This document shows positions 3,603 to 33,692 of a DNA stretch of 33,692 nt, in pieces. The notes below the pieces were generated by a model. It was not told the DNA's origin and did not search any database. It saw only the letters and a list, made by a program, of their open reading frames with translations. The stretch is from Gammaproteobacteria bacterium. Its GTDB lineage: Bacteria; Pseudomonadota; Gammaproteobacteria; DSM-16500. Location of the stretch: positions 6,935 to 40,626 of the forward strand of contig DAIDIB010000005.1 of assembly GCA_027459575.1 (NCBI GenBank), read 5' to 3'. Made by a program: the position numbers and the translations under genes. Position 1 is the first letter of the stretch. Every line of letters begins with the position of its first letter.

Positions 3603-4134
3603 TTATTTTTTCACAGAAGGTTTATGATCACGCGCCTTAATAAGAGTCTCTATCCCACATCTCGCACTCGGACGTTTTGCAACATCAACACGCCAACAAG
3701 CTTTAAAAAAATGCGCTACCCGCCGATTACATTTTTTGTCTATTTCCTCCGGCATGCCGCTCATCTTTTTAACTTGAATTGTAAGCGATTTTTGGCCAAC
3801 AGCCTCAAACGGGTCCTTTTTATGAAGCATGCTCCAAAACGTTAGTCCCAGTGCATACATATCAGAACCTTTGGTATTGTAAGCATGGCCTGGCATCATT
3901 ATTTCAGGCGCGACATAAAGCTCCGTTCCATATTTAGTACAACGTTTTTTAGCTTCTTCACTAGTGATAGCCAAACCAAAATCACATAATCTGGCGTGAT
4001 TGTCAGCGGTCAATAAAATATTTGCCGGTTTAATATCACAGTGCAAATAGTCAAAGGCATGCATAAACGATATTGCTGTGGTCGTTATTGATATCCGTTA
4101 TTTTAAGCGGAGTGACTTTTTTGCGAGATTCCAT
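3603..4134 (-). pseudogene. Eukaryotic-like Ser/Thr protein kinase remnant with N-lobe missing
   Basis: ORF 3603..4064 carries HCDIKPANILL, DFG and APE but no P-loop/VAxK N-lobe. A plausible original start at 4134 (MESRKKVTPLKITDINNDHSNIVYACL*) runs out of frame 4134->4051 and overlaps the kinase frame (..AISFMHAFDYLHCDIKPAN). Confidence 0.7.
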
Positions 4135-9028: not shown

Positions 9029-10201
9029 CTAACAGTAGGTTGCTTTCTCTTTAGCTGTGAATTGTTTATTAGCATTAACAGCTAAAAAATCAGCCAGACG
9101 ATCACCTATCATTGCAATCACATCTTGATTAGTATCAATTGAAAATGGCAAACCAAGCATTGCCTGACTCAAGTATTCGGTATTTAATAGTCGTAATTCT
9201 TTAGGGAGACCCTGATAAGCAGGGTACGTGTGACAACCTTTATTCCACCAGATTCGGGATTCAATATTCTGATCTAACATATAATCGCGAGCTAATTCCG
9301 CCAGACCTGACACTAGCACATTGCAAGTACTACTGAGCCAGTCGATAGAAAGCCAGGATTTTAAACCCAACTGGTCAAACATGGTTATATAATTACTTGT
9401 CACTGCCAGGCGTTTCTCTCTAATTTCATCCCAGGCGTCCAACACTGCCAGACCAATGCCAGCCTGATATTCAGACATTTTGGCATTCGTGCCAAGGTAG
9501 GAGGAGGTGCGTGACACATCAAAACCAAAATTAGACATGCCTTTGACACGACTGATGAGATCAACATCCGATGAAAGCAACATTCCACCCTCTCCGATGC
9601 CAAATATTTTTGTACCGTGCAGACTAACCATCATGGGTGTTGCGCCTGGCCGCATCTGGGGTAAACGATGAACTGCATCAAACGATGCCGCCGCGTCAAT
9701 CATAACGGGGATTTTTGTTTCCGCAGTAAACGCATCCCACTCTGCACGCGGAATGGGATAACCAAATGGTGAAACCACCATTACAGCGCCAATTTCTTCT
9801 ATTGGAACATGGTCATGAGCAAGAAACTGCTTAACTAGCGCGGGTGTCAATGCCTGCGTATCCAGATCAACATCCAAAAATAATGGCCTTAATCCTGCTA
9901 ACATGGCGGAAGCAGGTGTTGCAGAAAAAGTCCATGATGGCATCAGACAATATTTATCTTTATCTATACCCATCGCCATTAATCCAGTCTGCAGGGCAAG
10001 CGTACCGTTACACACCATCACAAGATTATCCCGAGGAATTTGCAGCAAATCCGCCATGCGTTGTTCAAACAAATTAAATAATTTGCCAAAATTACTATGA
10101 CAGCGATTGTTTTCTATGTGTGCAAGATAAGGAATCATTCGTTCAAAAGGAGGTAAACTGCTTTGCAAAATAGGTAAACGGTGTTCCAGTTTATTTTTCA
10201 T
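9029..10201 (-). CDS. DegT/DnrJ/EryC1/StrS-type PLP-dependent sugar aminotransferase
   Basis: NGTLALQTGLMAMGI, PSWTFSATPASAMLAGLRPLFLDVD, SLHGTKIFGIGEGGML around the catalytic Lys. Confidence 0.88.
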   Translation of the reverse strand: MKNKLEHRLPILQSSLPPFERMIPYLAHIENNRCHSNFGKLFNLFEQRMADLLQIPRDNLVMVCNGTLALQTGLMAMGIDKDKYCLMPSWTFSATPASAMLAGLRPLFLDVDLDTQALTPALVKQFLAHDHVPIEEIGAVMVVSPFGYPIPRAEWDAFTAETKIPVMIDAAASFDAVHRLPQMRPGATPMMVSLHGTKIFGIGEGGMLLSSDVDLISRVKGMSNFGFDVSRTSSYLGTNAKMSEYQAGIGLAVLDAWDEIREKRLAVTSNYITMFDQLGLKSWLSIDWLSSTCNVLVSGLAELARDYMLDQNIESRIWWNKGCHTYPAYQGLPKELRLLNTEYLSQAMLGLPFSIDTNQDVIAMIGDRLADFLAVNANKQFTAKEKATYC

Positions 10202-10228: not shown

Positions 10229-10885
10229 TCATAACTGCGAATATAAATTATCGCGAATCTGAGTAGGTTCTTGCTCTGCCAGACATTGAATAATACTGTG
10301 ATACTCCCCATTATAATCAGGCAAAAAACGCAGCTTTATACCACGCTGCTGAAAAACATTCTCTTCATAAAGCGCACGCCCACCAGAAGCATTGACATAC
10401 TCTGTTGCCTGAAAATGACTGGCAATGTGCAATATTCTATCCTGACTCTTAATATTGGCTGGAATATTTAATGAGGCAGAATAAGTTATATTGAATGGAA
10501 TGGCAAGAATGTGACAAATTTCGCGCAAACAATTTACAATATAATCGCAAGGAGTCAATTTTAAATCTCTTATAGTGTTATATAACACAGGATATTTTTG
10601 CTCAATGACGCTTAATGCACTGTATCGCTTTAGCGTATCGTGCCATTCATCTTGTGCGCTCTCGCGAAATAATAAATCCTTGATAACTGTGTCCATTGGC
10701 TGCTTTTGTAGTGGCATAGTCAGATAATCGAGTGCGCCAGATTTCGTTTTTAATCGGTTGCGATGAACCCAACTACGTCTTGGAAATTGAACACAGTTAT
10801 AAATCACAAAAAGATCTGTCGCGCACAGCAGACGCAAGTAACCACTGTAAGGAAGAAAATTTGGCTGCATAATGGATATTTTCAT
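10229..10885 (-). CDS. WbqC family protein
   Basis: MKISIMQPNFLPYSGYL, D.FVIYNCVQFPRRSWVHRNRLKT, characteristic WbqC-like N-terminus; TAATG coupling to upstream gene. Confidence 0.9.
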   Translation of the reverse strand: MKISIMQPNFLPYSGYLRLLCATDLFVIYNCVQFPRRSWVHRNRLKTKSGALDYLTMPLQKQPMDTVIKDLLFRESAQDEWHDTLKRYSALSVIEQKYPVLYNTIRDLKLTPCDYIVNCLREICHILAIPFNITYSASLNIPANIKSQDRILHIASHFQATEYVNASGGRALYEENVFQQRGIKLRFLPDYNGEYHSIIQCLAEQEPTQIRDNLYSQL

Positions 10886-12363
10886 TAGACAGTCTCACTC
10901 GAACACCAGCGTTCCCACATATGCAGATAGGCTGTCTCGAAGTTTTTATAAAAATGATGAATATTGGTGAGAGATGAAGTGACCATTTCTTCGTGTAATT
11001 GTTTACGATAATGAGCTATTTGACCTGGTTTGCAAGCAAGAGTAGTTGCGAGTTTAACATAATCATCTACTGTTTCAGCAATCAATTCGGGATGATTGAG
11101 TGTTGTTAACACACTGGCGCCCGAACGCGCAGCCCAACGTTGTCCACGCAAGGTGACGATTGGCACTCCTTGCATCAACGCTTCAAAAGTAGTAGAGCCG
11201 CCTGTAACGGGCATATTATCCAGCATAATATCAATTTCGTTATATTTCTTTAGTGCGTCGGCTTGTTCAGTCCAGCCAAGCAAAATCACACGATCACCAG
11301 CTATGCCGCGATTTGCAAAATGTGTCGCAAACACCCGACGATATAGATCATGACTAAAGGTACCGCACTTCAGAATAAGACGTGAATTGGGCACTTGTTT
11401 TAAAACTCGCGCCCACGCATCAAGGTTTTCATGTGTAATTTTATGGCCGCTACCAAAATTACCAAAAGTAATAAAACCGTTTTTTTTGACCGGCGGCTCT
11501 TGAGTCCTGCTACCGAACAACTCCGCATCATAACGTACAGCCGCATTGAACTGATCGCAACGATAAACCTGTTCCACATAATAAGGTATATCATCGTCCG
11601 CGATAGAAACCCGGTCACTCATGACGTAGTCAATAAAAGGCAAGCCTGTGGTTGAAGTATGATTGTACCAGTTTATTTGTATTGGCGCCGGTCGGTAAGA
11701 GAGCGCGTTAAACCGGTTAATAATGCAAAAACCATTCATTTCCTGCAGAATATCAATGCCATGTTGTTTGATTAAGGCAGCAAGATCACTATCCGATTTA
11801 CCTCGCGTATCAAGCCAGTGATCAGCATACTGCCTTAAATGTTCAGGCGTTTCGCCATCATCGTAACAATATATCTCAAATCTACTCTTGTCATGTAACT
11901 TTAAAAACGGTAAAAAACAATTGTGCGCAATACTGTTCGCAAAAAAATGACAAACGTAACCCAGTTTTATTTTCTTATTTTTTTCTTTACTCATGCCCTT
12001 TTCCCAGCCGACACGACGCGCGGGTGAATCATAAAGTTCTGCCCACTCTTTATGCGCCTTGAGTAACGATGCATTTGTTGTGCTTGAGCAAAGCAACAGG
12101 TTTTGTAAATACATGCCGTGAACTCTGTCATCGTTCTGGTCATTTAAAAATCGCATATAGAATTCAGACGCTTTTTCATGCTGGCCAGCATTCATTAGCG
12201 TCTGTGCAATTTCTACATAAGGATGCAAAATGGATTTTTTTTCGTTTTCATAACGCACACGCCAACTATCTATTACCGCCAGATCTAGCGGGAGATAAGG
12301 CTTGACTTCATTACCTACCTTATTCGTGTCAAAACGTTTTCGCAAAAAATCAAACCATCCCAT
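10885..12363 (-). CDS. SPINDLY/OGT-like (GT41) glycosyltransferase
   Basis: PIQINWYNHTSTTGLPFIDYVMSD, ITFGNFGSGHKITHENLDAWARVLKQVPNSRLILK, DIMLDNMPVTGGSTTFEALMQGVPIVTLRG. Confidence 0.88.
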   Translation of the reverse strand: MGWFDFLRKRFDTNKVGNEVKPYLPLDLAVIDSWRVRYENEKKSILHPYVEIAQTLMNAGQHEKASEFYMRFLNDQNDDRVHGMYLQNLLLCSSTTNASLLKAHKEWAELYDSPARRVGWEKGMSKEKNKKIKLGYVCHFFANSIAHNCFLPFLKLHDKSRFEIYCYDDGETPEHLRQYADHWLDTRGKSDSDLAALIKQHGIDILQEMNGFCIINRFNALSYRPAPIQINWYNHTSTTGLPFIDYVMSDRVSIADDDIPYYVEQVYRCDQFNAAVRYDAELFGSRTQEPPVKKNGFITFGNFGSGHKITHENLDAWARVLKQVPNSRLILKCGTFSHDLYRRVFATHFANRGIAGDRVILLGWTEQADALKKYNEIDIMLDNMPVTGGSTTFEALMQGVPIVTLRGQRWAARSGASVLTTLNHPELIAETVDDYVKLATTLACKPGQIAHYRKQLHEEMVTSSLTNIHHFYKNFETAYLHMWERWCSSETV

Positions 12364-12365
12364 AT

Positions 12366-13319
12366 TTATACACTCGCGAGCTTTCTTACAAAATTTTTGA
12401 GCCTTGCACTAAATGAAGCAGTGGGGGTCACAGCCATTGTTTCAGTTGCTACAGCGGGCGGCGGTTCGGCATTAAACATAATTAAATGACGGAAATTGAA
12501 CATGGATCGGTGAGTATCTGGCTTTGTCGCTGATGGATTGGGGGATGGCAAATTGATAATGTTTGTTTTCCAGGTTTCTTCCGGCATAAAATCCTTGGGA
12601 TGAATACGTATATCAATACTGTATCTTTCAACCGAATAATCCTCACTAAAGCTGGTACGATGCGGACAATAAGGATCAAAAATTAACACATCTCCTACTT
12701 CCATGTGCGGTCGCCAACGTAAAGGACTCGCTTTTACAGTAAGCATTTCATCTGACATGCCCTTACCGCTATAAGAAACTTCCAGGCCGTTATCCTGATG
12801 CAGCCTCTGATGCATTTTTTTCGGTATCAAATCCAGTCCGGGCGTTTTTGCATCGATCTTCATCAATGGCATCCAGCACGTGAAAAACTTATCACCGCGA
12901 TCAAAAATATCCTGATGCCAGGGCAAATAATTTTTCCATTCAGTTGGATCGCAACGACGAATACCCGTTGATTCCACATGAACAACAAATTCGTCTTTAT
13001 TAAAATAATCTTTCAGGCAATCGATAAATCTGGTTTTATTCAATACTTGCTCTAACGAAGCGAGGCTAGGCAAAATCCCTGCGGGGTGGCCACCTGCCAC
13101 ATAGCTTTCGTTTTCAGGCGACAATAACTTGTTATGCATCAGGTTTTTAATAACATAAAATAAATCGAGCGTTTCATTTTTAATATGATCTACTTCTTCC
13201 GGCGCAAATAGACCGCGAATCATAATGCAACCGTATTTTTTCATGGTTTCACTGAACAACGCGGGTGACAGTGACGCGTAAGAGACTGTCATTTCATTGC
13301 CTGAGACATATTCCATCAT
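12366..13319 (-). CDS. Phytanoyl-CoA dioxygenase (PhyH) family Fe(II)/2-oxoglutarate oxygenase
   Basis: WHQD...PHRTSF...RYSIDIR facial-triad pattern; GCIMIRGLFAPEEVDHIKNE N-terminus. Confidence 0.8.
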   Translation of the reverse strand: MMEYVSGNEMTVSYASLSPALFSETMKKYGCIMIRGLFAPEEVDHIKNETLDLFYVIKNLMHNKLLSPENESYVAGGHPAGILPSLASLEQVLNKTRFIDCLKDYFNKDEFVVHVESTGIRRCDPTEWKNYLPWHQDIFDRGDKFFTCWMPLMKIDAKTPGLDLIPKKMHQRLHQDNGLEVSYSGKGMSDEMLTVKASPLRWRPHMEVGDVLIFDPYCPHRTSFSEDYSVERYSIDIRIHPKDFMPEETWKTNIINLPSPNPSATKPDTHRSMFNFRHLIMFNAEPPPAVATETMAVTPTASFSARLKNFVRKLASV

Positions 13320-14273
13320 TTATTCTCCTTCACTCATGGAAGCAAGACCTATGCCAGTCTTGCCAAAGCCATTGCCGTTATAAAACATATAATATTTGCC
13401 GTTGGTTTTAACAACCGAAGGAAACGCGAGCATTACTGAATCCCAGTCATTTTCAGAACGCTTGAGATTGACCTGATCATCGTGTCGATCCCAGTTTTTT
13501 GCATCCTTTGATTCGGCGTAACCGATCCAGTAAGCGCCATTTCCTTCCCGGAAATCTTCAATGCTGCGATAACTATACCACATCCTGAAAACACCGTTTT
13601 CCTTGATCACACTCGCATTTGAAATGCACTCAAAATCATAATTTTTATTTAAAGCCACTACCGCATCTCGATGCCAGTCTATACCATCCTTCGAATGCGC
13701 GTAATAAAGCGTGAACATGCCTTCAAAACGGCCTTTAATTGGCACCCATTTTTCCAGATTCAGATAATACATATGCCAATCATCGCCATCTTTGATTACA
13801 TAGGGATTGTTGGAAAAAATCGGCTCTTTTTTAGTGCGGTCGAAGAGTGGTGCAGGTGAATATCGCTCAAAGGTATGACCACCATCATGACTGATGGCAA
13901 GGCCTGTTGTGAGTCTGTGGGGTGTTAATGTTAAAGCATTCCAACCGTGATAATAAAGATAAACCTTGCCATCATGGTGCATCGCGCAACTTGGCGTCAC
14001 GCCACAATCATCAAATGTTCCCGGCTCACCTAAATCCAGCACGGGCTTGTCTGAATGACCCAACACTTGTGTTGGATCATTCACATCTACATCCACATAA
14101 CCCATCCGTCCGCGATTATCTTTATCGCGCGTAGTAAAAAAAACTCTTATTCTATCTTGCAGGACTATTGCTTTAGGAAATGAAGCATGCGAATGCATCC
14201 AGTCCGCATGTTTGTCAACGTGAAAAATCATGCCATGCTTTTGCCATGTTTGTTTTTGATCTGCTTTACTCAT
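13320..14273 (-). CDS. Glycosidase-like five-bladed propeller protein (GH43/GH32/GH130-like)
   Basis: SFPKAIVLQDRIRVFFTTRD, DDCGVTPSCAMHHDGKVYLYYHGW, SNASVIKENGVFRMWYSYR, YYMFYNGNGFGKTGIGLA. Start taken at MSKADQK (14273), overlapping the upstream stop, rather than track start 14384. Confidence 0.75.
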   Translation of the reverse strand: MSKADQKQTWQKHGMIFHVDKHADWMHSHASFPKAIVLQDRIRVFFTTRDKDNRGRMGYVDVDVNDPTQVLGHSDKPVLDLGEPGTFDDCGVTPSCAMHHDGKVYLYYHGWNALTLTPHRLTTGLAISHDGGHTFERYSPAPLFDRTKKEPIFSNNPYVIKDGDDWHMYYLNLEKWVPIKGRFEGMFTLYYAHSKDGIDWHRDAVVALNKNYDFECISNASVIKENGVFRMWYSYRSIEDFREGNGAYWIGYAESKDAKNWDRHDDQVNLKRSENDWDSVMLAFPSVVKTNGKYYMFYNGNGFGKTGIGLASMSEGE

Positions 14274-15294
14274 AAACTTTTTCCTCTTTCTCTTTTGCAG
14301 CCCAATATGCTGGAAAATATCCCGTGAGATTTTCAGGATCGACACCATACTTTGCACACGATTGCGTATATGCTGACTGATCATAAATTTGTTTTAGCGC
14401 ATAGGTCGTCATGGGTTTGCCGCCAAATCGCGCCTTGAATTGCTCAAGCGCATCACCTTCACGCACACCACAACCCAGATGCAGCCACTTCGCACCTTGC
14501 TCATGAAAATATGTGACGGCATCAAACAGAATACCACGCGCGTGTGCACGCCCCTCATCATTAGAGGCGATCATGTAGTAATCGACGATGTCATGATAAT
14601 GAATGAAAATGGTAACTGCCTGAATATAACCATCAACCGCCACACTTAATAAATGCGAATGCGGTGAGGCAATTATCTGACGCCAGGCTGTTTCGCCAAA
14701 ATCATAAACGGCCGCTGCGTTTCTGGCCTGAAGTGCGGCTGAATAATGTTTCACAAACGAAGCAATAACATCTTCACTTTTTTCCCTACAAACGACAAAT
14801 CCCGCTTTTTGCCATTGGCGCAAACGCTGTCGATGATCATTTGAAAAATTTTTTCGTATTGCTTCAAGGTCTGATGTTAAATCCAGCATGTAAGTGGTTT
14901 TGCCAGCAAATAAATCGCTCGGTCTAAAAGTAAACTCTGCATTGACAAAAGGATGTAGCGCAATGTGACCGCAAATGTACCCTTGCTCTTGCATAAATGA
15001 GTACCAGCTCTCAGCAAACTCATGGCAAGTGCCATGATAGGCGAAACCGGAAAACCCATAAGGTGTAGTGATATCTGATGAATCTTGGGGTGACTTGCGG
15101 CGTGGCGAGATAGGACATACCACGCTGAAATTTTCATTTTGCGCGACATACAAAAAAATGTCGCGATTTGAAGCGCTACGCATCGCCTGATTGTACCAAT
15201 GGGTATGAGTATAAGCATGATGAGGGACATCGGCTAGCGCCGCTTCCCACTCTTGCTTCGCGTGTAATGGAATTAATTTCTGCCTCAGCTGCAT
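14266..15294 (-). CDS. FemAB/GNAT-like acyltransferase
   Basis: FSNDHRQRLRQWQKAGFVV, YYMIASNDEGRAHARGILFDAVTYFHEQGAKWLHLGCG, LEQFKARFGGKP; start chosen at MQLRQKL just after upstream stop. Confidence 0.8.
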   Translation of the reverse strand: MQLRQKLIPLHAKQEWEAALADVPHHAYTHTHWYNQAMRSASNRDIFLYVAQNENFSVVCPISPRRKSPQDSSDITTPYGFSGFAYHGTCHEFAESWYSFMQEQGYICGHIALHPFVNAEFTFRPSDLFAGKTTYMLDLTSDLEAIRKNFSNDHRQRLRQWQKAGFVVCREKSEDVIASFVKHYSAALQARNAAAVYDFGETAWRQIIASPHSHLLSVAVDGYIQAVTIFIHYHDIVDYYMIASNDEGRAHARGILFDAVTYFHEQGAKWLHLGCGVREGDALEQFKARFGGKPMTTYALKQIYDQSAYTQSCAKYGVDPENLTGYFPAYWAAKEKEEKVYE

Positions 15295-15298
15295 ATTC

Positions 15299-16738
15299 TT
15301 ATAGCCAACTCTTGTCCCATTCGTTTGCGATATTAAAAACACCTAAATTCGGCCGCAGACGTTCCTGAATATGCGGATGCAAGGCGCGATCAACCAATGC
15401 CTGAATATTACGGTTATTCAAATCCACGTGATTTTCAAACCAAAACCAGAAGCGAGCGATTTCGATGCGAAACGGCACATGCTCTTCCTGCTGCGATGCC
15501 CATTGAATATTTGTCAGTAGCACGCGGCCATCCAGCACGGCGGCCCAAAGGGTATCTTTAATATAAAGTGATTGGTCTATAGCACCTTGATAATTCCATT
15601 CAAAATGAAATCCTTTTTCGGGTGAAGCGCACATAAAAAATGCAAAATTAGCGTGTTTTCCTTCAATAACCACTTTTACATTGACGTTAAAATCAAGATT
15701 CCACTTCGTTAGCCATTTATTTAGATGAGCAAGATAGATTTTGGTACGCTCTTGCAGATTATCGATAGGCGCAGAATCCAGCCATTTGCGCAAATTGGTC
15801 ACTTTATCTTTGAACTTATCCCTGACTTTGTCGATCAAGGTAAGATAATTATTCCAGTCGATTTCAGGATGATTGCGCTGTAACCCACCCTCAAGCGACC
15901 AAGTGTCGGTAGGATACATAATAACAACATCAATGTTTTTCTCAGGGTAATTATCTTTAACAAAATCTTCAAACAATTTAGGTGTGGCGCGATTAGACCA
16001 GTTGCAATGATAAAGACTGTCATCCAGCCACGCAAAATCACCCGCAAACGGCGCAATGCGTTTTACTTTCAACATTTCAATCATGTTACGCTGTTGCGTC
16101 CAGCTATGCTTGCGACGGGTGGAAGCGTCACGAATTTCATCCATAGTCATGCGAAAACAGCCAGGAAACATGGAAACGCCCGAATACTGCACAAAAGCAA
16201 GATCAATTTCGCCAAATAAATTATCGACTTTATCGTAAACTTCTTTATCCGATGGACAATCGTTCATGTTTAAAATTTTCTGCCCATGGTAATTCAGCAT
16301 AAAACCAGAATTTTCCCAATCCCAATATTTTGTTTTGGCCGCGGGAATCAATGTAAATGTCGTATCAGCATCCAGCTGCAAGGTTGCAAATGGTTGCAGC
16401 TTAATAATGTTATGGAAGCCGAGCTCACGAAATGTTCGCTCAACAGTCTGTGCTCGCAAACAAGGGTAATCTGCATACTCCGGCAAAATAATTTTCAAAT
16501 GACGTGGCAACAGATTGAGTGAGGGAATATGCAGATGATCCTCATGCGGATGACTAAGGTACAGGTAATCAATGTCCTTTACTACTTCCTCTGGCGACAT
16601 AATAGCCGCAGGAAATTTCCAGGTAGTGAAAGCGTAAATTGGTTCATTCAAAATCCAGGGGTCTGTCAAAAGGCCGCCAAAACTGCCGTTCAATTTAATA
16701 CAGGCATGAGTAACATAGGTAATGATCAACTTGTCCAT
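15299..16738 (-). CDS. Metallo-beta-lactamase-fold protein resembling the catalytic domain of CMP-N-acetylneuraminate hydroxylase (UlaG/CMAH-like)
   Basis: IITYVTHACIKLN, LLTDPWILNEPIY, YLSHPHEDHLHIPSLNLLP, GFMLNYHGQKILNMNDC, RIAPFAGDFAW; start at MDKLIITY (16738) preferred over track start 16765. Confidence 0.75.
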   Translation of the reverse strand: MDKLIITYVTHACIKLNGSFGGLLTDPWILNEPIYAFTTWKFPAAIMSPEEVVKDIDYLYLSHPHEDHLHIPSLNLLPRHLKIILPEYADYPCLRAQTVERTFRELGFHNIIKLQPFATLQLDADTTFTLIPAAKTKYWDWENSGFMLNYHGQKILNMNDCPSDKEVYDKVDNLFGEIDLAFVQYSGVSMFPGCFRMTMDEIRDASTRRKHSWTQQRNMIEMLKVKRIAPFAGDFAWLDDSLYHCNWSNRATPKLFEDFVKDNYPEKNIDVVIMYPTDTWSLEGGLQRNHPEIDWNNYLTLIDKVRDKFKDKVTNLRKWLDSAPIDNLQERTKIYLAHLNKWLTKWNLDFNVNVKVVIEGKHANFAFFMCASPEKGFHFEWNYQGAIDQSLYIKDTLWAAVLDGRVLLTNIQWASQQEEHVPFRIEIARFWFWFENHVDLNNRNIQALVDRALHPHIQERLRPNLGVFNIANEWDKSWL

Positions 16739-16830: not shown

Positions 16831-17487
16831 ATGACAGACACAATAGCAAATTATCTAGACATCGCACACTTCTACGAAGCCTGTCTCGATAAACATGGCG
16901 CCACGCCACAAGGTGTAGATTGGCCTAATCAGGCGGATAATGAAAAGCGCTTTGAGGTAATGCTCAATTTAATGTGTAGAGAAGCAAAAAATGCCACTAT
17001 TAGCTTACTCGATTTGGGTTGTGGTTACGGTGCAATGGCTGATTATTTAATCAAAAATAAAAAATCAGCAAATATTTTGTATAATGGTATCGATATTTCA
17101 CCCAAAATGATTGGCAAAGCCACCGAACTATTTCCTGATCAGTCCTTCTCAACCCGCGATATATTACAAAACCCCTTGCCGGTAGAAAGTGTTGATTATG
17201 TCATCATGAATGGCGTCTTGACTGAAAAACGCAGCCTAACATGGGATGAAATGAAAAACTTTGCCCAGCGCATAATTAAGGCAGCTTTTGATACCTGCCG
17301 CAAGGGAATCGCCTTCAATGTCATGTCACAACAGGTTGACTGGTGCGGCTTGCAGTTATTTCATTGGTCATTTGATGAAGTGGCTGCTTTCCTGTTTAAA
17401 TCATGCTCGCGGCACGTTGTGTTTCGTAGTGATTATGGATTATATGAGTACACAGTCTATGCCTACAAAGTCCCAAATGAGAAATGA
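16831..17487 (+). CDS. Class I SAM-dependent methyltransferase
   Basis: LLDLGCGYGAMADYLI, YNGIDISPKMIGKA, VDYVIMNGVL. Confidence 0.88.
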   Translation: MTDTIANYLDIAHFYEACLDKHGATPQGVDWPNQADNEKRFEVMLNLMCREAKNATISLLDLGCGYGAMADYLIKNKKSANILYNGIDISPKMIGKATELFPDQSFSTRDILQNPLPVESVDYVIMNGVLTEKRSLTWDEMKNFAQRIIKAAFDTCRKGIAFNVMSQQVDWCGLQLFHWSFDEVAAFLFKSCSRHVVFRSDYGLYEYTVYAYKVPNEK

Positions 17488-20507: not shown

Positions 20508-21215
20508 TTATGTCAATTGCACAACATTTCTTTGAGCATATTTACCCACCCGGAATTTTTCACCTGCTCTAATGTAGGTGCACAGCAATACATAACGGAA
20601 TTCATTGGTCGCATTCATATTCGACGCATGCACGACATGGCCGTGAATAAAAAGTGCGGCTCCTTTAGGCACAGTAGCATGAATAGGCTTGTAAACTTCA
20701 GGCACTACGCACTCTTCGTTGTTAGCATTGGGATCTTGCGAAGACGATGCTTCCATCTGGACCTTTCTGACTGGCAGCAAACCTTCTTTATGACTGCCTG
20801 GGTAAACAATAAGACCGCCTTTTTCAGGGTAGGTATCTGTCAACGCCACCCAGGCAGAGAGAAAAACACCATAGTTAGCCTCGACAAAAAAATTGTCCTG
20901 ATGCAAAGAAAATCCACGTGTGCCGGGTTTACAAAAGAAAAATTCGGTTTGCAGCCCAACCGGCTCGCCCTCACAAAATATCTCGACAAGATCAACAATC
21001 TTTTTATTTTTGAGCGCTGTCAAGTACACATCATTAATGCGGTGCGGCATCATTTGCGGACGATAAGTACCAGATTTGGCATTTTCAAAATCTCGCGAGT
21101 GGACAATGAGGTGATCGCATTCTTCTGGAGTAAATACAGCAGGTTCGATGTGATAACCATGCTCATTAAACGCGGCAAGTATTCGACTATCGGTTTGCTT
21201 CATTATTGCATCCAT
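20508..21215 (-). CDS. Phytanoyl-CoA dioxygenase (PhyH) family oxygenase
   Basis: FSLHQDNFFVEAN...GGLIVYPGSHKEGLLP...IHGHVVHASNMNATNEFRYVL (HxD...H...R). Confidence 0.9.
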   Translation of the reverse strand: MDAIMKQTDSRILAAFNEHGYHIEPAVFTPEECDHLIVHSRDFENAKSGTYRPQMMPHRINDVYLTALKNKKIVDLVEIFCEGEPVGLQTEFFFCKPGTRGFSLHQDNFFVEANYGVFLSAWVALTDTYPEKGGLIVYPGSHKEGLLPVRKVQMEASSSQDPNANNEECVVPEVYKPIHATVPKGAALFIHGHVVHASNMNATNEFRYVLLCTYIRAGEKFRVGKYAQRNVVQLT

Positions 21216-21235: not shown

Positions 21236-22837
21236 TCAAAGCACTATCACTTCACCAACTTTGACGTCATCAAATTGCTTATCTATCACCACTGTTGCTT
21301 CTGACTGTAGATACGATTCACCACGTTGACTATATGTTATCCCAATTACGCCTGGCTCAAGATTCTTGAGACATTTCATGCTCTTTTTCTGAGATTCACT
21401 ATTTTCAGTGGGACCGGTGTTGGCAGCCCCACACCACTTAATGCTATAGTTGCCATGTCCTAATGCTTGCGACAACGCCCCGCTCGCCAGAAAATAACGG
21501 TTAAAAGCATACTCTTCTTTTTCAGTAATAAAATGAATGCGCTTTAATTCATGCTGGTCTGTCAGCCAGCTTTGGATAATCGCTTCAGATTGATGTAAAT
21601 ATCCCACAAAATGCCACGCGGCACGCATCATGTTCAGATTTGCCTGATAAGCCTGCAATGAAAGATAGAACATTAACACTGCGGTTATCGTGATTGAACG
21701 TATCACAACAGGTAAAACCGAAGCACAACGATAAACCGACCATATCACGATAATAATGCCAGCCGAAACAGAGCCCATGAACAAACGAGCTCCCGCATTA
21801 TAAGAGGGAATAACCAGGGCGAACGCGCAGCAAAGTAAAAATAAGGCGCCAGCAAAGAAAACAGGCTGAGCAAGCCGCGCTGATGTTTTATATCGATAAA
21901 AATAAGTTACCGAACCCAGCAGCAATCCACTAGTTATCAAAAATAAAATGACATTGCCCTGTGTTACATTATTAGAAAGCGGAAGAATAGACCAAATACC
22001 GCCGTAAACGTCCGCAATAGTAAATAGTCTGCTGATCATTTCGACAGGATTAAGATTAGGTTTATCTAGACGATATTCTGGCGGTACCGCTGTGCGACTA
22101 TGAAAATGCATGTTGTAATATGCCCACACGAAGAAAATTACACCGGCAAGCAAAAATATTCTGGCCTCAATCATTACTTCTTTTTTCGACCTGCCCCAAT
22201 CATCGAGACGTGAAAACAGCACTTTCGTAAGCATGAAAGTGCAATAAAAGAATGACATGGCGGGATAGGAAAGCATAGCGAAAATCAGCGAAATGACGGC
22301 GGTCGCTTTCAAAAAACGTGCGGCAGTTGCCGTCTTCTCGTAAGTGTGCGACTTTAACACGCAACGATATGCGATAATCGCTAATAGTATTGGTACTGGC
22401 AAAGAAAGCGCGCCAGTTAATATAGTGTCACCATAAAAATGAGGTATTAAAATCAGCGCGGCTGCAATCAAAAACCCTTGTAGTAGTGATACGCCATACA
22501 TGCGCAACCAGTCGGCAATCAAACCCGCGCTGCAACCCATTAACAACACCGCGACAATGCGAATATCTCGCATGCGCTCAACGGTAAATGCGTAACGAAA
22601 ACTCAGGCAATCCATATACGCCTGTAGCGGCCGCCCCAGGGTCATCATGAAGTGATAACCATCATCCTTCGCGCATGACAACCCAGGATTGCCGAATGTG
22701 TAACGGTAATCATCACCACCGTAGTACAGAAAATTAATAGCTGGCGCGAAAATAAGATAAAGAAGCGCGATACTACATAAGCTATATATCAGCAGCCATT
22801 TTCTTTCTTCGCCAAATTGTTTCAGTCGCGAGCTCAT
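21236..22837 (-). CDS. Polytopic membrane protein, GT-C-like glycosyltransferase family B, copy 1
   Basis: Multiple TM segments; GGDDYRYTFG...C..DDGYHFMMTLGRPLQAYMDC; paralogous to next gene and to 28489..30141. Confidence 0.7.
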   Translation of the reverse strand: MSSRLKQFGEERKWLLIYSLCSIALLYLIFAPAINFLYYGGDDYRYTFGNPGLSCAKDDGYHFMMTLGRPLQAYMDCLSFRYAFTVERMRDIRIVAVLLMGCSAGLIADWLRMYGVSLLQGFLIAAALILIPHFYGDTILTGALSLPVPILLAIIAYRCVLKSHTYEKTATAARFLKATAVISLIFAMLSYPAMSFFYCTFMLTKVLFSRLDDWGRSKKEVMIEARIFLLAGVIFFVWAYYNMHFHSRTAVPPEYRLDKPNLNPVEMISRLFTIADVYGGIWSILPLSNNVTQGNVILFLITSGLLLGSVTYFYRYKTSARLAQPVFFAGALFLLCCAFALVIPSYNAGARLFMGSVSAGIIIVIWSVYRCASVLPVVIRSITITAVLMFYLSLQAYQANLNMMRAAWHFVGYLHQSEAIIQSWLTDQHELKRIHFITEKEEYAFNRYFLASGALSQALGHGNYSIKWCGAANTGPTENSESQKKSMKCLKNLEPGVIGITYSQRGESYLQSEATVVIDKQFDDVKVGEVIVL

Positions 22838-22850
22838 CTTTAAATCCTAA

Positions 22851-24485
22851 TCAGGTTAAGAGCTGCGTGTACCATGTATTTATACGAACGCTTACCGCTT
22901 TAGGTACAATGACTAACATGCCTTCGGTTTGAGTGTAAGGCTCACCGGTATAACTGTAAGTCACCGCGACGACATCATGTGAAGTATTCCGCACGCATTC
23001 CAGCATTTGCGCTTGGTGATCTTTTTCCTCACCTTCTACTCCGCGCGGTAGTGAACACCATTTCAACTTAAATTTGTCATGCCCGTAAATTTCCGACATT
23101 GCCCCGCTCGCCAGAAAAAAATTGCTATGAGGATATTCAGCACGGTCAATGACAAAGTGCAAACGTTTAACGCTGCCGTTTTTGCTCAGGTAACTCATAA
23201 TAGATGAAGTAATGTTATTATGATAATAAAAATGACTCAGCGCATCTGCCATCGTATAAGAACCAGCCTGCAAGGTCTGAAAAATAAAAAAACCTCCTAG
23301 TATCAATGCCGAGGCAGCGGCCTGAATTTTTGTCTTAAAAAGCAAGCCAAGGTTGTTTAGCGCCCAAATTATCAATGCAACATTGGCAGTCATAGCTGCA
23401 TATAACAACCTTGAACCAAGAGAATCTCTAACTGGTATGATCAGAAAAAATCCGCAGCTAAACAAATACAGTAGGACAACATAGAACATAGACTGCCACA
23501 TCGAAAAGCCTGCTATTTTGTTTTTCTTATGCTTTTGCCATAAATTAAAACCAGCGAGGATAACACCGATGCCTAATGTTAAGAGTACAATTTTACCCTG
23601 TGTTGGTGGCTTCATATATGGGAGAAACCACCAAGCGCCATCAAAAGGATTCATCAGACCGAGCATGCGCTCGAACATTTCCAGTGGATTAATAGCAGGA
23701 TGGTCAACACGATAAGCGGATGGCACTGGCGCTTGCGCATTAAAGCGCATATTCAAGTATGCCCAAATAAAATAGACCACACAGACCGATACAAATAGTT
23801 TGATTTCCCTGTTTACCGCGATTTTTGTTAGCGGCCAATCAGATGACTTGGAGAAAAGCACCCGCATTAACATTAAAGTGCAGAATATAAATGCCATGGC
23901 AGGATAGGTAAGCAGTGCGCAGAACAACCACATTGCAGAGAACGCTAACCACAATCGCACACTACCCTGCAACTTGTTAGCAAAAATCAGATGCACCCTT
24001 GCAAGACAGCTATAGGAAAGTATGGCAAAAAGAACTGAATACGGCAGTGACACCGCCCCCAACTGCACAGTGTCAGCGTATAACTTGGGCACCATAAAGA
24101 TGATGCCAGCGGCGAAAAAGGCCGTGAAAAACGCCACCCCCATCGAATAGAGAATTTCCGCCAGCAAGCCCATGCCTAACCCCATCAGACCAACAGTGAA
24201 GAAGCGAATCATTCGCATTCTTTCGAGCGTGTAGCCGTGCTTATAACTGAAGCAATCCATATAAGCCTGCAACGGTCGACCCAAAGTTTTCATAAAATAA
24301 AAACCATCGTCTGAACCACACGTTTTGTCTGGACCGCCAAATACATAACGAATATCTTCACCAGAGTGAAACAGCACACTGGATGCTGGCGCAAAAACAT
24401 AAAAAAGAACCAACATGCTTCCAAAGATATAAAGCCACCTGCGCTTTGTATCAGCAGAAAAATTAATTACTTCAGTTATTTTCAA
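22851..24485 (-). CDS. Polytopic membrane protein, GT-C-like glycosyltransferase family B, copy 2
   Basis: SGEDIRYVFGGPDKTCGSDDGFYFMKTLGRPLQAYMDC; C-terminal KWCSLPRGVEGEEKDHQ...YTGEPYTQTEGMLVI. Confidence 0.7.
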   Translation of the reverse strand: MKITEVINFSADTKRRWLYIFGSMLVLFYVFAPASSVLFHSGEDIRYVFGGPDKTCGSDDGFYFMKTLGRPLQAYMDCFSYKHGYTLERMRMIRFFTVGLMGLGMGLLAEILYSMGVAFFTAFFAAGIIFMVPKLYADTVQLGAVSLPYSVLFAILSYSCLARVHLIFANKLQGSVRLWLAFSAMWLFCALLTYPAMAFIFCTLMLMRVLFSKSSDWPLTKIAVNREIKLFVSVCVVYFIWAYLNMRFNAQAPVPSAYRVDHPAINPLEMFERMLGLMNPFDGAWWFLPYMKPPTQGKIVLLTLGIGVILAGFNLWQKHKKNKIAGFSMWQSMFYVVLLYLFSCGFFLIIPVRDSLGSRLLYAAMTANVALIIWALNNLGLLFKTKIQAAASALILGGFFIFQTLQAGSYTMADALSHFYYHNNITSSIMSYLSKNGSVKRLHFVIDRAEYPHSNFFLASGAMSEIYGHDKFKLKWCSLPRGVEGEEKDHQAQMLECVRNTSHDVVAVTYSYTGEPYTQTEGMLVIVPKAVSVRINTWYTQLLT

Positions 24486-28488: not shown

Positions 28489-30141
28489 ATGCAGAACATG
28501 TTTAGCATTGGTTTTAAACAAAAAAGGCTGATTAGTTATATTTTGCTGAGCTTCGTTGTTTTATATGTCATTTTCTCGCCCGCAATTAACCAACTTTACT
28601 ATTCTTCTGATGATTTTCGATATGCATTTGGAGGTTTAAATAAAACCTGCGTATCTGATGATGGATTTGAATTCATGCTTACATTAGGCAGGCCCATTCA
28701 AGCCTATATTGATTGCGCCAGTTATAAATTCGCTTACACGCTGGAGCGAATGCAAATATTGAGACTATTCTCTCTGTTACTGCTCGCCACGACGATTGGA
28801 TTGTTGGCAAATTTGTTTTTTTCACTTCGACTGTCGCTTGTTTCAGCCCTGGCATCAGCCTTCTGTTTCTTTTTAATTCAATATCTTTATAGTCCTGTTA
28901 TTTTAATGGGCACACTGCCCTTAGTTCTTCCCATTTTATTTGCGCTCCTTGCAAATTTATTTTTAAATGTATCGCAACAAGATACAAAAAAAGTTTTCAG
29001 ACTTGCATTATCAGTCATATTGTTACTGTGCGCCTTGTTGACCTATCCTGCTGTGGCTTTCTTTTTTGCTGTCATCATTCTTCTTAAAACACTTTTTTCA
29101 GATTTATCTGATTGGCCTGTTATCAGATCAAGAGTAATTCTGGAAACGCTGACATTTTTTAGTGCCTGCCTGCTTTATTTTGTGTTTGCTTATCTAAATA
29201 TGCACTACAATGCACGAGCACTCATTCCACCCTCCTATCATTTAGATCACCCCAACTTTAATATCCTTGAAATCACTAAACGGCTTGCTTCTTTAATAAA
29301 TATTTTTGACGATAAATGGGCCATCCTGCCTTCTGGACAATCACCGGCTCAAAAAATTATTCTGCTCACTCTACTATTAGCTGGCAGCGTAGCAGGTGTG
29401 ATTTTATTATGCAGAAGTGATTTTTATAAAAAAGAGAAGAAAACCGCTCTATATTTTTTGCTGCAAAAAACTGCGGCGGTATTTTGTTTGCTAATATTGA
29501 GCAATGCATTTTTGCTTGTTATACCTGATTTTGATTTTATAAAGTTCGAACACTGGTTATTGTATGTCTATATCGCCTCTGTCTTTTCCTTATTAATATG
29601 GTGCGCTTATCAATTAAGTGGATTGTTTTCTCCCCATTGGCGACATGCGATTTTCATTTCATTTCTACTTGTCTTTTTAATACCTGCTAGCTTGCAAGCT
29701 AATATAATAATGACAGCAAGAAGCTGGACAGCAGCCAAATACATTAACTATCACCAGCGACTCGTTGCCAATTATCTGTCAAAAAGCGAACCGCTAAAAC
29801 GCATACATTTTATCATTCCCTCTTCTTATTATCCTTACGACCGCTATTTTTTAATTAATGCGGTATTAGTTCAGCTACATGGACGTCACAACTTTGACTT
29901 GACATGGTGTTCGCTCCCACGAGGTATTCCAGGTAAAGAAATCGATCATCAACAAGACATGCGTAATTGTCTTGATAACCTGGGATCAAACGGAATTGCT
30001 GCAACGTATAGTTTTGTTGGCGAACCCTATCAGCAAACACCTGACATGCTTGTCATTGATGATACAAAAATCTCGCCTATCGAATATTTTAATGACTGGC
30101 TTATAAAGTCCCATAATATACGTGGCTGGTCATATTCATAA
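28489..30141 (+). CDS. Polytopic membrane protein, GT-C-like glycosyltransferase family B, copy 3
   Basis: SSDDFRYAFGGLNKTCVSDDGFEFMLTLGRPIQAYIDC; C-terminal TWCSLPRGIPGKEIDHQ...VGEPYQQTPDMLVI. Confidence 0.7.
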   Translation: MQNMFSIGFKQKRLISYILLSFVVLYVIFSPAINQLYYSSDDFRYAFGGLNKTCVSDDGFEFMLTLGRPIQAYIDCASYKFAYTLERMQILRLFSLLLLATTIGLLANLFFSLRLSLVSALASAFCFFLIQYLYSPVILMGTLPLVLPILFALLANLFLNVSQQDTKKVFRLALSVILLLCALLTYPAVAFFFAVIILLKTLFSDLSDWPVIRSRVILETLTFFSACLLYFVFAYLNMHYNARALIPPSYHLDHPNFNILEITKRLASLINIFDDKWAILPSGQSPAQKIILLTLLLAGSVAGVILLCRSDFYKKEKKTALYFLLQKTAAVFCLLILSNAFLLVIPDFDFIKFEHWLLYVYIASVFSLLIWCAYQLSGLFSPHWRHAIFISFLLVFLIPASLQANIIMTARSWTAAKYINYHQRLVANYLSKSEPLKRIHFIIPSSYYPYDRYFLINAVLVQLHGRHNFDLTWCSLPRGIPGKEIDHQQDMRNCLDNLGSNGIAATYSFVGEPYQQTPDMLVIDDTKISPIEYFNDWLIKSHNIRGWSYS

Positions 30142-30895: not shown

Positions 30896-31604
30896 GTACG
30901 ACAGTGTCAAGATAATAATGCCGCAAATAGATAAAAGCTTATTCGACCAGATATTAGTGATAGATGGAAACTCTACTGACGGCACAATTGAATGGTGCCG
31001 ACAACAAGGTTACGAAGTATATATACAGCAACAACGCGGATTACGAAGTGCTTATGAAGAAGCCTTGCCCCACATTCGTGGCGATGTCATGATCACCTTT
31101 TCTCCAGATGGTAATTCTCTCACACAATTATTACCGGATTTAGTAGCTGAACTTAAAAAAGGACGAGACATGGTCATCGTGTCCCGCTACCTAGGTAACG
31201 CCAAGAGTGAAGACGATAGCTTCATCACTCGCTTTGGCAACTGGATGTTCACTACTTTAATTAATGTTTTGCATGGCGGTAAATATACTGATGCTATGGT
31301 GATGTATCGCGGCTATAAAAAAAGCCTGATCACCGATTTGAAACTACTGGATCCCAAAGCTTATAACTTCCCTGAAAAATTGCTTGGCACACGGGTCAGC
31401 ATTGAGCCTTTGCTGTCTATTCGCGCGGCACGCGGCAAGCTAAATGTAAGTGAAATTCCTGGTGACGAGCCTGCACGTATCGGCGGCCAACGTAAATTAC
31501 AAATAATCCGCTGGGGGTTAACATTCTTGTATCAAGTCGTTACTGAAGTTTTTAGACAAAAACCTGTTGTAGTGAAAACTGCAAGTATAAATGAACGGAT
31601 TTAA
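30861..31604 (+). CDS. Glycosyltransferase family 2
   Basis: MKITLCVLTLNEYDSVKIIMPQID, ILVIDGNSTDGTIEWCRQQGYEV, GLRSAYEEALPHIRGDVMITFSPDGNS. Confidence 0.9.
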   Translation: MKITLCVLTLNEYDSVKIIMPQIDKSLFDQILVIDGNSTDGTIEWCRQQGYEVYIQQQRGLRSAYEEALPHIRGDVMITFSPDGNSLTQLLPDLVAELKKGRDMVIVSRYLGNAKSEDDSFITRFGNWMFTTLINVLHGGKYTDAMVMYRGYKKSLITDLKLLDPKAYNFPEKLLGTRVSIEPLLSIRAARGKLNVSEIPGDEPARIGGQRKLQIIRWGLTFLYQVVTEVFRQKPVVVKTASINERI

Positions 31605-32559
31605 ATTAATGATTGGCATAAACCAAACCGCAGCTGATCTTAAATTTCTGACGCCAGATAGCTTATACGAGCAAATAAAGCAATTTACTTCGGGAATGGC
31701 AGTGACCAAAGGTGTATATGAACTGGATGTAGCCATGTGCACGCTGGAAGATTTTGAATGGAACCACATGGATCAGTTGCACAGGCCCGCAATACATCGA
31801 ACGTACGACAAAAATATCCGCATTGCTTTTGGCCATGATTTTGCTGTTTCTCTCACACAATGGGGTAGATGGCCGATTTTTATCACCGTTTCAGATGTGT
31901 ATGTTGCAAAAGGTTTATTCTATCAATCGCTCACACTTGCTGGCATTATTTTTCTACACTCTATTATTTCCATGCAGAAAATCGGCGATGATACGATTCA
32001 CCTAAAGCATGAGTGGTATATTGCTTCGCACAAACTATTTAAATTTTTACATAAACCCATTAGCAAGCAGCTTTATAAATTAAATGTGCGCTTGCAGCAA
32101 GAAGACGAGCAGCTTAGACAAGGACGTTATACGCAGCGGAAAAAAGGATACACTTTTCGCACTGATAATCCGAATTATTATAATTCCAATCGCCTTTCCA
32201 ATAACACCATTTATCCCGCCTTGAAAAACCAGGCATCGATTTCTCTGACAGCCATCACTAATGAACCAACCCTGCAGGAAATCGGCGGCGTCGAGTTTAT
32301 TATTCAGAGAGAAAATAATGATGTTCTGATCTGGCCAGCAGCCTGTCCGCATGAAGGTGGCCCGCTGATCACCGGCAAATTTTGTAATCAGCAAATCACC
32401 TGTCCATGGCACAATTTACGCTTCAGTGCTGTGAAGCTATCTGTTGACACTCCAGTTGGAACTAGATATGGGTTTATGTATCAGCTGACAGATAACCAAT
32501 TATTTATAACGCATGCAGAGTCATTGAAGAAAGAGTATGCTGAAGAAGAATTTGCTTAA
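31591..32559 (+). CDS. Protein with C-terminal Rieske [2Fe-2S] domain and uncharacterised ~200-aa N-terminal domain
   Basis: ACPHEGGPLITGKFCNQQITCPWHNLRFS (CxH...CxxH ligands); start may be MIGINQTAAD (31609). Confidence 0.85.
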   Translation: MNGFKLMIGINQTAADLKFLTPDSLYEQIKQFTSGMAVTKGVYELDVAMCTLEDFEWNHMDQLHRPAIHRTYDKNIRIAFGHDFAVSLTQWGRWPIFITVSDVYVAKGLFYQSLTLAGIIFLHSIISMQKIGDDTIHLKHEWYIASHKLFKFLHKPISKQLYKLNVRLQQEDEQLRQGRYTQRKKGYTFRTDNPNYYNSNRLSNNTIYPALKNQASISLTAITNEPTLQEIGGVEFIIQRENNDVLIWPAACPHEGGPLITGKFCNQQITCPWHNLRFSAVKLSVDTPVGTRYGFMYQLTDNQLFITHAESLKKEYAEEEFA

Positions 32560-33002: not shown

Positions 33003-33692
33003 TTACAAATCATCGAAAAATGATGCCATTTTCTCTTTATCTTTTCTAATTTCTCTCATGTGCCTCTTAGTTTTATCACGCAGCTCATTTTTATCTATTG
33101 CCATCGATCCGTCTAGTTTTTTTGTCTTCAGAAATCGCTAGCATTTTTCCGTTGGGTTAAGCTCGGGTGAGTATGGGGGTAAAATTTCTATTTTGAGAGT
33201 TTTTTTATTTTCCTTCTCGAAATTTTTTACGATTTTCGCTGTATGCGTAGGAGCACCATCAACTATAACAATAATAAATCTATCGGAGGACTGCTTCATT
33301 AATTTTTTTAAAAATCGAATAAATATTTTTGCTGCAAACCTCTCTTTCTCTTTCGTCAATTCAAAACATAACCTGCCTTGTTGATTAACAGCTGCAGTTA
33401 TGCCAATATTTTGTCCGCGTTTTCCTGAGACGCGAACAGTGGGCTTCTTGCCCGGATAAGCCCAAGTTTTTCCTATATAAGGAATCAATGAGATAATGGA
33501 TTCATCTGCATAAAATAATAAAGCACGCTTCTTTTTGGCTATTTTTAGGATTTTTGGGAATCGCTCATTTTTCCACTTTCGTAATTCTTTTGAGTCTTGT
33601 TCTAAAGCTTTTCTTTCTGGAAATGTAACTACTCGCACCCCTCATCCAACTATTTCACCTGCAAGTGCCATCTGAATTGCAATTAATGGATT
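33003..33692 (-). pseudogene. IS630-family transposase with in-frame stops
   Basis: LLFYADES, GKRGQNIGITAAVNQQGRLCFE, IIVIVDGAPTHTAK, ILPPYSPELNPTEKC*RFLKTKK...; TAG at 33138-33140 replaces the conserved W; further TGA upstream (GEIVG*G); continues past window edge. Confidence 0.88.

Follow-up and report, generated by a model that had tools for sequence, protein, structure and literature searches.

The window, by which we denote the whole stretch of 33,692 nucleotides that was analyzed (G000:C5:6935-40626), belongs to an assembly of 2.0 Mb in 171 contigs that is 82% complete. It contains a gene for an MBL protein of 479 amino acids, which is read on the minus strand from an ATG at 16738 to a stop at 15299. 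An earlier note on this DNA had placed an open reading frame here and left the strand unstated; it is a real gene, and the plus strand of the same stretch has many stops according to the ORF check. Moreover, the start methionine is conserved in both orthologs, which are 75% identical in G024 (same family as the window genome) and 64% identical in G011 (same genus), whereas the other 33 genomes of the order lack an ortholog. The gene heads a seven-gene operon in the order MBL, GNAT/FemAB-like, beta-propeller (GH43/GH130-like), PhyH, GT41-like, WbqC, and DegT (Table 1), and this operon, already proposed in the earlier note, is real: its genes share the minus strand and either overlap or are separated by no more than ~30 bp. 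The propeller gene may have its true start at the ATG at 14273. A promoter scan of the operon gave sites no more numerous than in shuffles. The seven-gene order is retained in G024; in G011 the MBL, GNAT, propeller, and GT41 genes are retained, WbqC and DegT are inverted, and PhyH is not found at that place. On its other flank the MBL gene is accompanied by genes for a GNAT protein and a methyltransferase-like protein in G000, G024, and G011 alike, and the gene in the matching place of G024 and G011 resembles the methyltransferase of the window in N-terminus and size.

Table 1. Features of the locus, with positions in the window.
Feature	Position	Strand	Basis or remark
MBL protein, CMAH/NamH family, 479 aa, without Rieske domain	15299..16738	-	ORF, Pfam, profiles, tree
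DPW signature, residues 26-28	16655..16663	-	alignment
HxHxDH metal motif, residues 63-68	16535..16552	-	alignment; all four metal-motif residues intact
WENSG, residues 141-145, with Asn143	16304..16318	-	alignment
Bridging Asp160 (NMNDC)	16259..16261	-	alignment
PFAG, residues 230-233, at the position of the hydrolases' last metal His	16040..16051	-	alignment
Operon gene 2: GNAT (Acetyltransf_6) / FemAB-like	14266..15294	-	
Operon gene 3: beta-propeller, GH43/GH130-like	13320..14384	-	below Pfam cut-off
Operon gene 4: PhyH-type Fe(II)/2-oxoglutarate oxygenase	12366..13319	-	missing from this position in G011
Operon gene 5: GT41-like glycosyltransferase	10885..12363	-	
Operon gene 6: WbqC-like	10229..10885	-	
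Operon gene 7: DegT/DnrJ/EryC1/StrS sugar aminotransferase	9029..10201	-	
Divergent methyltransferase adjoining the MBL gene	16831..17487	+	
Protein of 322 aa with a Rieske domain (residues 223-279)	31591..32559	+	PF00355, E=8.4e-9

Besides the operon, the wider region contains genes resembling GmhA, GmhB, and HddA, suggestive of a nucleotide sugar pathway of the heptose type. Sialic acid synthesis genes are absent from the window, as had been noticed before, since neither NeuB-, NeuA-, nor PseB-like genes were found in it. Furthermore, NeuB (PF03102) was not found in the window assembly, in G024, or in G011, the three genomes with the MBL gene, at a completeness of 72-82%. The earlier view of a substrate that is probably other than a sialic acid is supported. 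The glycan region of the window harbors two PhyH-type oxygenases (12366-13319 and 20508-21215), and on the viral contigs L151 and L136 family members likewise have PhyH genes in their vicinity. Three paralogous proteins of ~540 amino acids, probably membrane proteins, are encoded at 21236-22837, 22851-24485, and 28489-30141 and have the block DDxRYxFGG...SDDGFxFMxTLGRPxQAYxDC in common. Judged by eye, the window additionally contains a truncated Ser/Thr kinase-like ORF (3603-4064) and a transposase-like ORF fragment (33138-33638), both on the minus strand.

The chain opens directly at the MBL domain, as claimed previously, and the motifs quoted at that time, THACIKLNGSFGGLLTDPWIL, SHPHEDHL, NYHGQKILNMNDC, and APFAGDF, are all present; their resemblance to the CMAH pattern (HAC, DPW, SHxHxDH, bridging Asp, P.AGxF), pointed out in the earlier note, is right at the family level. 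In one alignment with 59 other members, a count that includes near-copies from viral contigs, DPW, HxHxDH, the bridging Asp160, and P.AG are common to all or most of them. DPW is found in 58 of the 59, whereas all six hydrolases compared have DPI/F/V. The last metal His is likewise present in 6/6 hydrolases, its position being occupied by Ala here and by Ala or a small residue across the CMAH/NamH family. UlaG/NAPE-PLD-like hydrolases share the general fold and HxHxDH with the window protein, but they have two further His ligands (xHW and GxHxG) that it lacks, and with the third and the last metal His both missing, membership in this group was rejected.

The metal site differs from that of the remaining family in one position. 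The Asp of the D(S/T) motif is found in all 18 Rieske-fused and all 41 Rieske-less members outside the window clade, and because of this invariance it likely binds metal, whereas the three members of the window clade all have Asn143. This replacement is a new observation. The metal ligands, which the earlier note had suggested to check, are thus conserved in HxHxDH and the bridging Asp but not in the D(S/T) motif, and therefore hydroxylase chemistry is not simply to be assumed. The exchange, uniform in the clade, would fit a loss of the oxygenase function through Asp143Asn, leaving an altered or non-catalytic protein that binds or scaffolds components of the glycan machinery. However, HxHxDH retains its four residues, the bridging Asp is kept, the clade (n=3) is strongly conserved with 64-75% identity, and Glu142 directly adjoins Asn143 within a loop, WDWENSG, that is invariant in the clade. 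Intact metal residues and strong conservation suggest a site that is altered rather than dead, and we regard such a loss as improbable.

Regarding the family, Pfam gives only the generic MBL domain (8e-8), and a sequence search of the PDB returned FrsH, in first place, and CmlA, both diiron MBL monooxygenases, at ~2e-5. A profile built from the three orthologs matched only four other proteins at E<=1e-12 in 369 genomes of the class, all of them of the CMAH/NamH family and three of four Rieske-fused, and no MBL hydrolase reached this threshold with the same profile in these genomes. The four comprise L056 without Rieske, L006 and L052 with the N-terminal Rieske of the CMAH arrangement, and L055 with a C-terminal Rieske. 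L006 is located near UDP-GlcNAc 2-epimerase and DegT genes and L052 beside a NeuA-like cytidylyltransferase, as expected for a real bacterial CMAH. The best plasmid matches are proteins of Rhodococcus, Tsukamurella, and Nocardia with the MBL domain first and Rieske last; two of them were scanned and both carry PF25451 SCP2_Rv3818 (~1e-48), i.e., they are NamH-type. Rv3818 is namH, the UDP-MurNAc hydroxylase (PMC10234563), whose domain layout and role have been described (PMC10050696), and CMAH and the namH product have been described as distant homologs with the same mono-oxygenation (PMC6481270). A tree with 64 rows splits the family from UlaG/NAPE-PLD-type hydrolases and CmlA-type oxygenases with a support of 98/94. 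The profile alignment spans 266-336 columns against the CMAH, NamH, C-terminal Rieske, and viral stand-alone groups vs 169 against hydrolases; the hydrolase profiles match the CMAH and NamH profiles in score, but over this shorter span. The genomes of relatives were sampled in part, with one per species, so that distant members may be missed. Taken broadly, the MBL protein almost certainly belongs to the CMAH/NamH family.

Within this family the tree shows the window clade (100/100) as an isolated lineage in a fan without a clear branching order, and the CMAH proteins group elsewhere. The previous description as a CMAH-type MBL protein lacking Rieske holds for the type and for the missing domain, but the protein represents a separate deep lineage and not a CMAH from which the Rieske domain was cut off. 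CMAH proteins (L006, L051, L052) have HAC, DPW, SHxHxDH, the bridging Asp, and P.AGxF in common with it, but differ in the N-terminal Rieske, the clade, and the Asp at position 143; moreover, L052 has its NeuA-like neighbor, whereas NeuB is missing from the three genomes (72-82% complete) with the window gene. A true CMAH was consequently rejected, being excluded by clade, the absence of NeuB from these incomplete genomes, and the lack of an N-terminal Rieske. NamH/Rv3818 is similar in that the MBL domain starts the chain, the blocks NMND, QYSG..P, and P.AG are common, and the nucleotide amino sugar on which it acts is of the kind proposed for the window protein, but it has a C-terminal Rieske, an Asp at the position of Asn143, and C-terminal domains without a significant match. 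NamH proper was rejected as well, since both the C-terminal Rieske and PF25451 are lacking. CmlA and FrsH, the top PDB match by sequence and by Foldseek, share the MBL fold and the absence of Rieske, but they have a long N-terminal domain, an acidic ligand in their GEHGD loop, and DPI/V/L in place of DPW, and their substrates are carrier-bound amino acids. The window protein has neither this N-terminal domain nor the acidic ligand of GEHGD and lies outside the CmlA clade, and thus membership there was also rejected.

An AlphaFold2 model from 32 sequences reached a pLDDT of 76 and a pTM of 0.80, whereas three sequences alone gave a pLDDT of only 56. Residues 1-407 are mostly confident and comprise the MBL core followed by helices and four strands (residues 295-402), and residues 408-479 are not confident. 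In the family alignment Arg429 falls on an Arg that is almost invariant. The part after the MBL core gave no significant profile match to the SCP2-like C-terminal domain of CMAH and NamH. Foldseek placed FrsH first (5.9e-14 vs 9.8e-10 for hydrolases), but the TM-scores are nearly equal (0.40 vs 0.38-0.39), and therefore the fold alone is not decisive. A closer relationship to UlaG, named in the earlier note as the outcome that would speak against its reading, did not emerge, as the best Foldseek match is FrsH and the sequence profiles lead to an oxygenase-containing family. Against viral models Foldseek found only generic MBL proteins. The dinuclear oxygenases of the amidohydrolase fold were also considered as a parallel and set aside as not relevant, because their fold differs.

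CMAH and NamH are known sources of N-glycolyl sugars, and their electrons are thought to arrive via the fused Rieske domain. Along the whole 479-residue chain of the window protein no Rieske motif (CxH...CxxH) was found. An apparent C-terminal relic, in which MAFFT set RALHPH against the CPH of the NamH Rieske, was rejected, as this region lacks a Cys/His motif and has a pLDDT <50. CMAH is reduced via cytochrome b5 and its own Rieske centre (PMC9219854), and it follows that a Rieske-less relative, if it is an oxygenase, must be reduced otherwise. The window itself encodes a Rieske protein that had been overlooked in the earlier note (Table 1), and apart from a bc1-type protein it is the sole Rieske match in the assembly. 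Located in the same glycan region at a distance of 15 kb, it could donate electrons in trans to the MBL protein, the two forming a two-component oxygenase. However, the gene is on the opposite strand in a separate neighborhood, and its product, which has a ~200-residue N-terminal part without any Pfam match, finds its best PDB matches in the Rieske oxygenases SxtT/SxtDIOX (E ~1e-6). Furthermore, G008 has an ortholog of the Rieske protein (L168:9458-10417), flanked by large, probably membrane, proteins, but no MBL gene, whereas this Rieske gene is missing from the two MBL-positive relatives, G024 and G011, at a completeness of 76% and 72%, and the stand-alone members on viral contigs likewise lack Rieske. 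Such a pairing is thus very improbable. No redox partner was found near the MBL gene, and none is common to the three genomes except the bc1-type Rieske protein. As the Rieske and the MBL gene do not co-occur across relatives, a dedicated Rieske partner is altogether unlikely for these incomplete genomes.

The absence of Rieske is widespread in the family. Outside the window clade, 41 of the 59 sampled members are stand-alone, ~30 of them on IMG/VR contigs, where a search with the family alignment had yielded 47 matches. Nine of these contigs (L136, L138, L143, L146, L150, L151, L152, L154, L157) have the Rieske-less gene inside nonulosonic-acid operons with PseB-, PseC-, NeuB/PseI-, PseH-, and NeuA/PseF-like genes. 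Five other viral proteins (L128, L132, L133, L140, L149) of ~404-428 amino acids belong to the CMAH clade but lack Rieske, and nine more (L121, L122, L131, L135, L144, L145, L148, L153, L159) show the NamH arrangement of MBL and then C-terminal Rieske. On Halobaculum plasmids, Rieske-less members are located between NAD synthase and ABC transporter genes (L082:8004-9428 and L084:5995-7401). A stand-alone member of G027, which represents another genus of the family to which the window genome belongs, has GmhB/GmhA-like and GHMP-kinase-like genes in its neighborhood, a setting that resembles the window region (L049, 4803-12541). The viral Rieske-less members (L136, L151, L154, and others) share HxHxDH, the bridging Asp, and P.AG with the window protein, but they keep the invariant Asp, belong to another pathway, and are only 16-23% identical. 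The window clade itself was not found among the viral contigs, and the INPHARED phage records gave no match to the protein.

These relatives bear on the main rival of an oxygenase, namely that the protein is a hydrolase on the CMAH/NamH scaffold, e.g., a nucleotide-sugar hydrolase or an N-deacylase of the sugar pathway. Hydrolysis is the generic MBL chemistry and requires no electrons, and therefore this reading accounts for the absence of Rieske, which was matched on none of the 17 IMG/VR records searched whole. Moreover, PseG (TIGR03590), the hydrolase needed in the viral operons, is found on 0/13 records with such operons, so that their MBL protein could take over this reaction; these records may be fragments, however, and a CMP-sugar hydroxylase would occupy the same operons. 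The window operon, in addition, has no Pse/Neu pathway, and throughout the family, including the Rieske-less members, the His of motif 2 and the last His of MBL hydrolases are missing and the acid-rich site is shared with the Rieske-fused hydroxylases. Taking both sides together, we consider a hydrolase rather unlikely. In a wider and equally doubtful view, the CMAH/NamH family might include a large, undescribed, and Rieske-independent half that is spread over bacteria, haloarchaeal plasmids, and viral contigs, its members having another electron supply or being hydrolases that replace PseG in the viral nonulosonic-acid operons, and the window clade with its Asp143 to Asn exchange would then be a further change of chemistry on the same scaffold.

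The reading that we prefer, and to which we give about an even chance, is a hydroxylase that depends on iron, is reduced in trans, and acts on an N-acyl sugar in activated or carrier-bound form. The stand-alone protein would be a non-heme iron-dependent oxygenase, and on an amino sugar linked to a nucleotide or a carrier it would hydroxylate the N-acyl group (e.g., from N-acetyl to N-glycolyl) or some other unactivated carbon. This sugar would be made with the DegT aminotransferase and the acyltransferase of the operon and then be incorporated into a surface glycan or glycoprotein, and a general cellular ferredoxin or reductase would supply the electrons instead of a fused Rieske domain. We infer all four elements, iron, O2 chemistry, N-acyl sugar substrate, and electron donor, and the logic of an N-acetyl to N-glycolyl conversion is drawn by analogy from CMAH and NamH. 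The metal motif, the family placement, and an operon with DegT, acyltransferase, and glycosyltransferase that is kept in relatives support an oxygenase. Asn143, the Rieske domain of the biochemically known members CMAH and NamH, and the lack of a redox partner near the gene count against it, as do the near-equal TM-scores, the scores of the hydrolase profiles, and the C-terminal domain without a significant match. FrsH is a non-heme diiron monooxygenase (PMC7794379), and the Rieske-less CmlA and FrsH, which set a precedent, show that an MBL oxygenase can do without a fused Rieske.

We know of no activity for any Rieske-less CMAH/NamH member, and none was met in a limited search of open papers. 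Such a lineage, Rieske-less and with the invariant acid swapped while most of the MBL metal site is retained, is a natural test of the roles of the Rieske domain and of this acid. If the sugar is hydroxylated, glycans with N-glycolyl or hydroxyacyl groups may occur more widely in bacteria than thought; if it is hydrolyzed, this would be an unrecognized switch of chemistry within the CMAH/NamH family.
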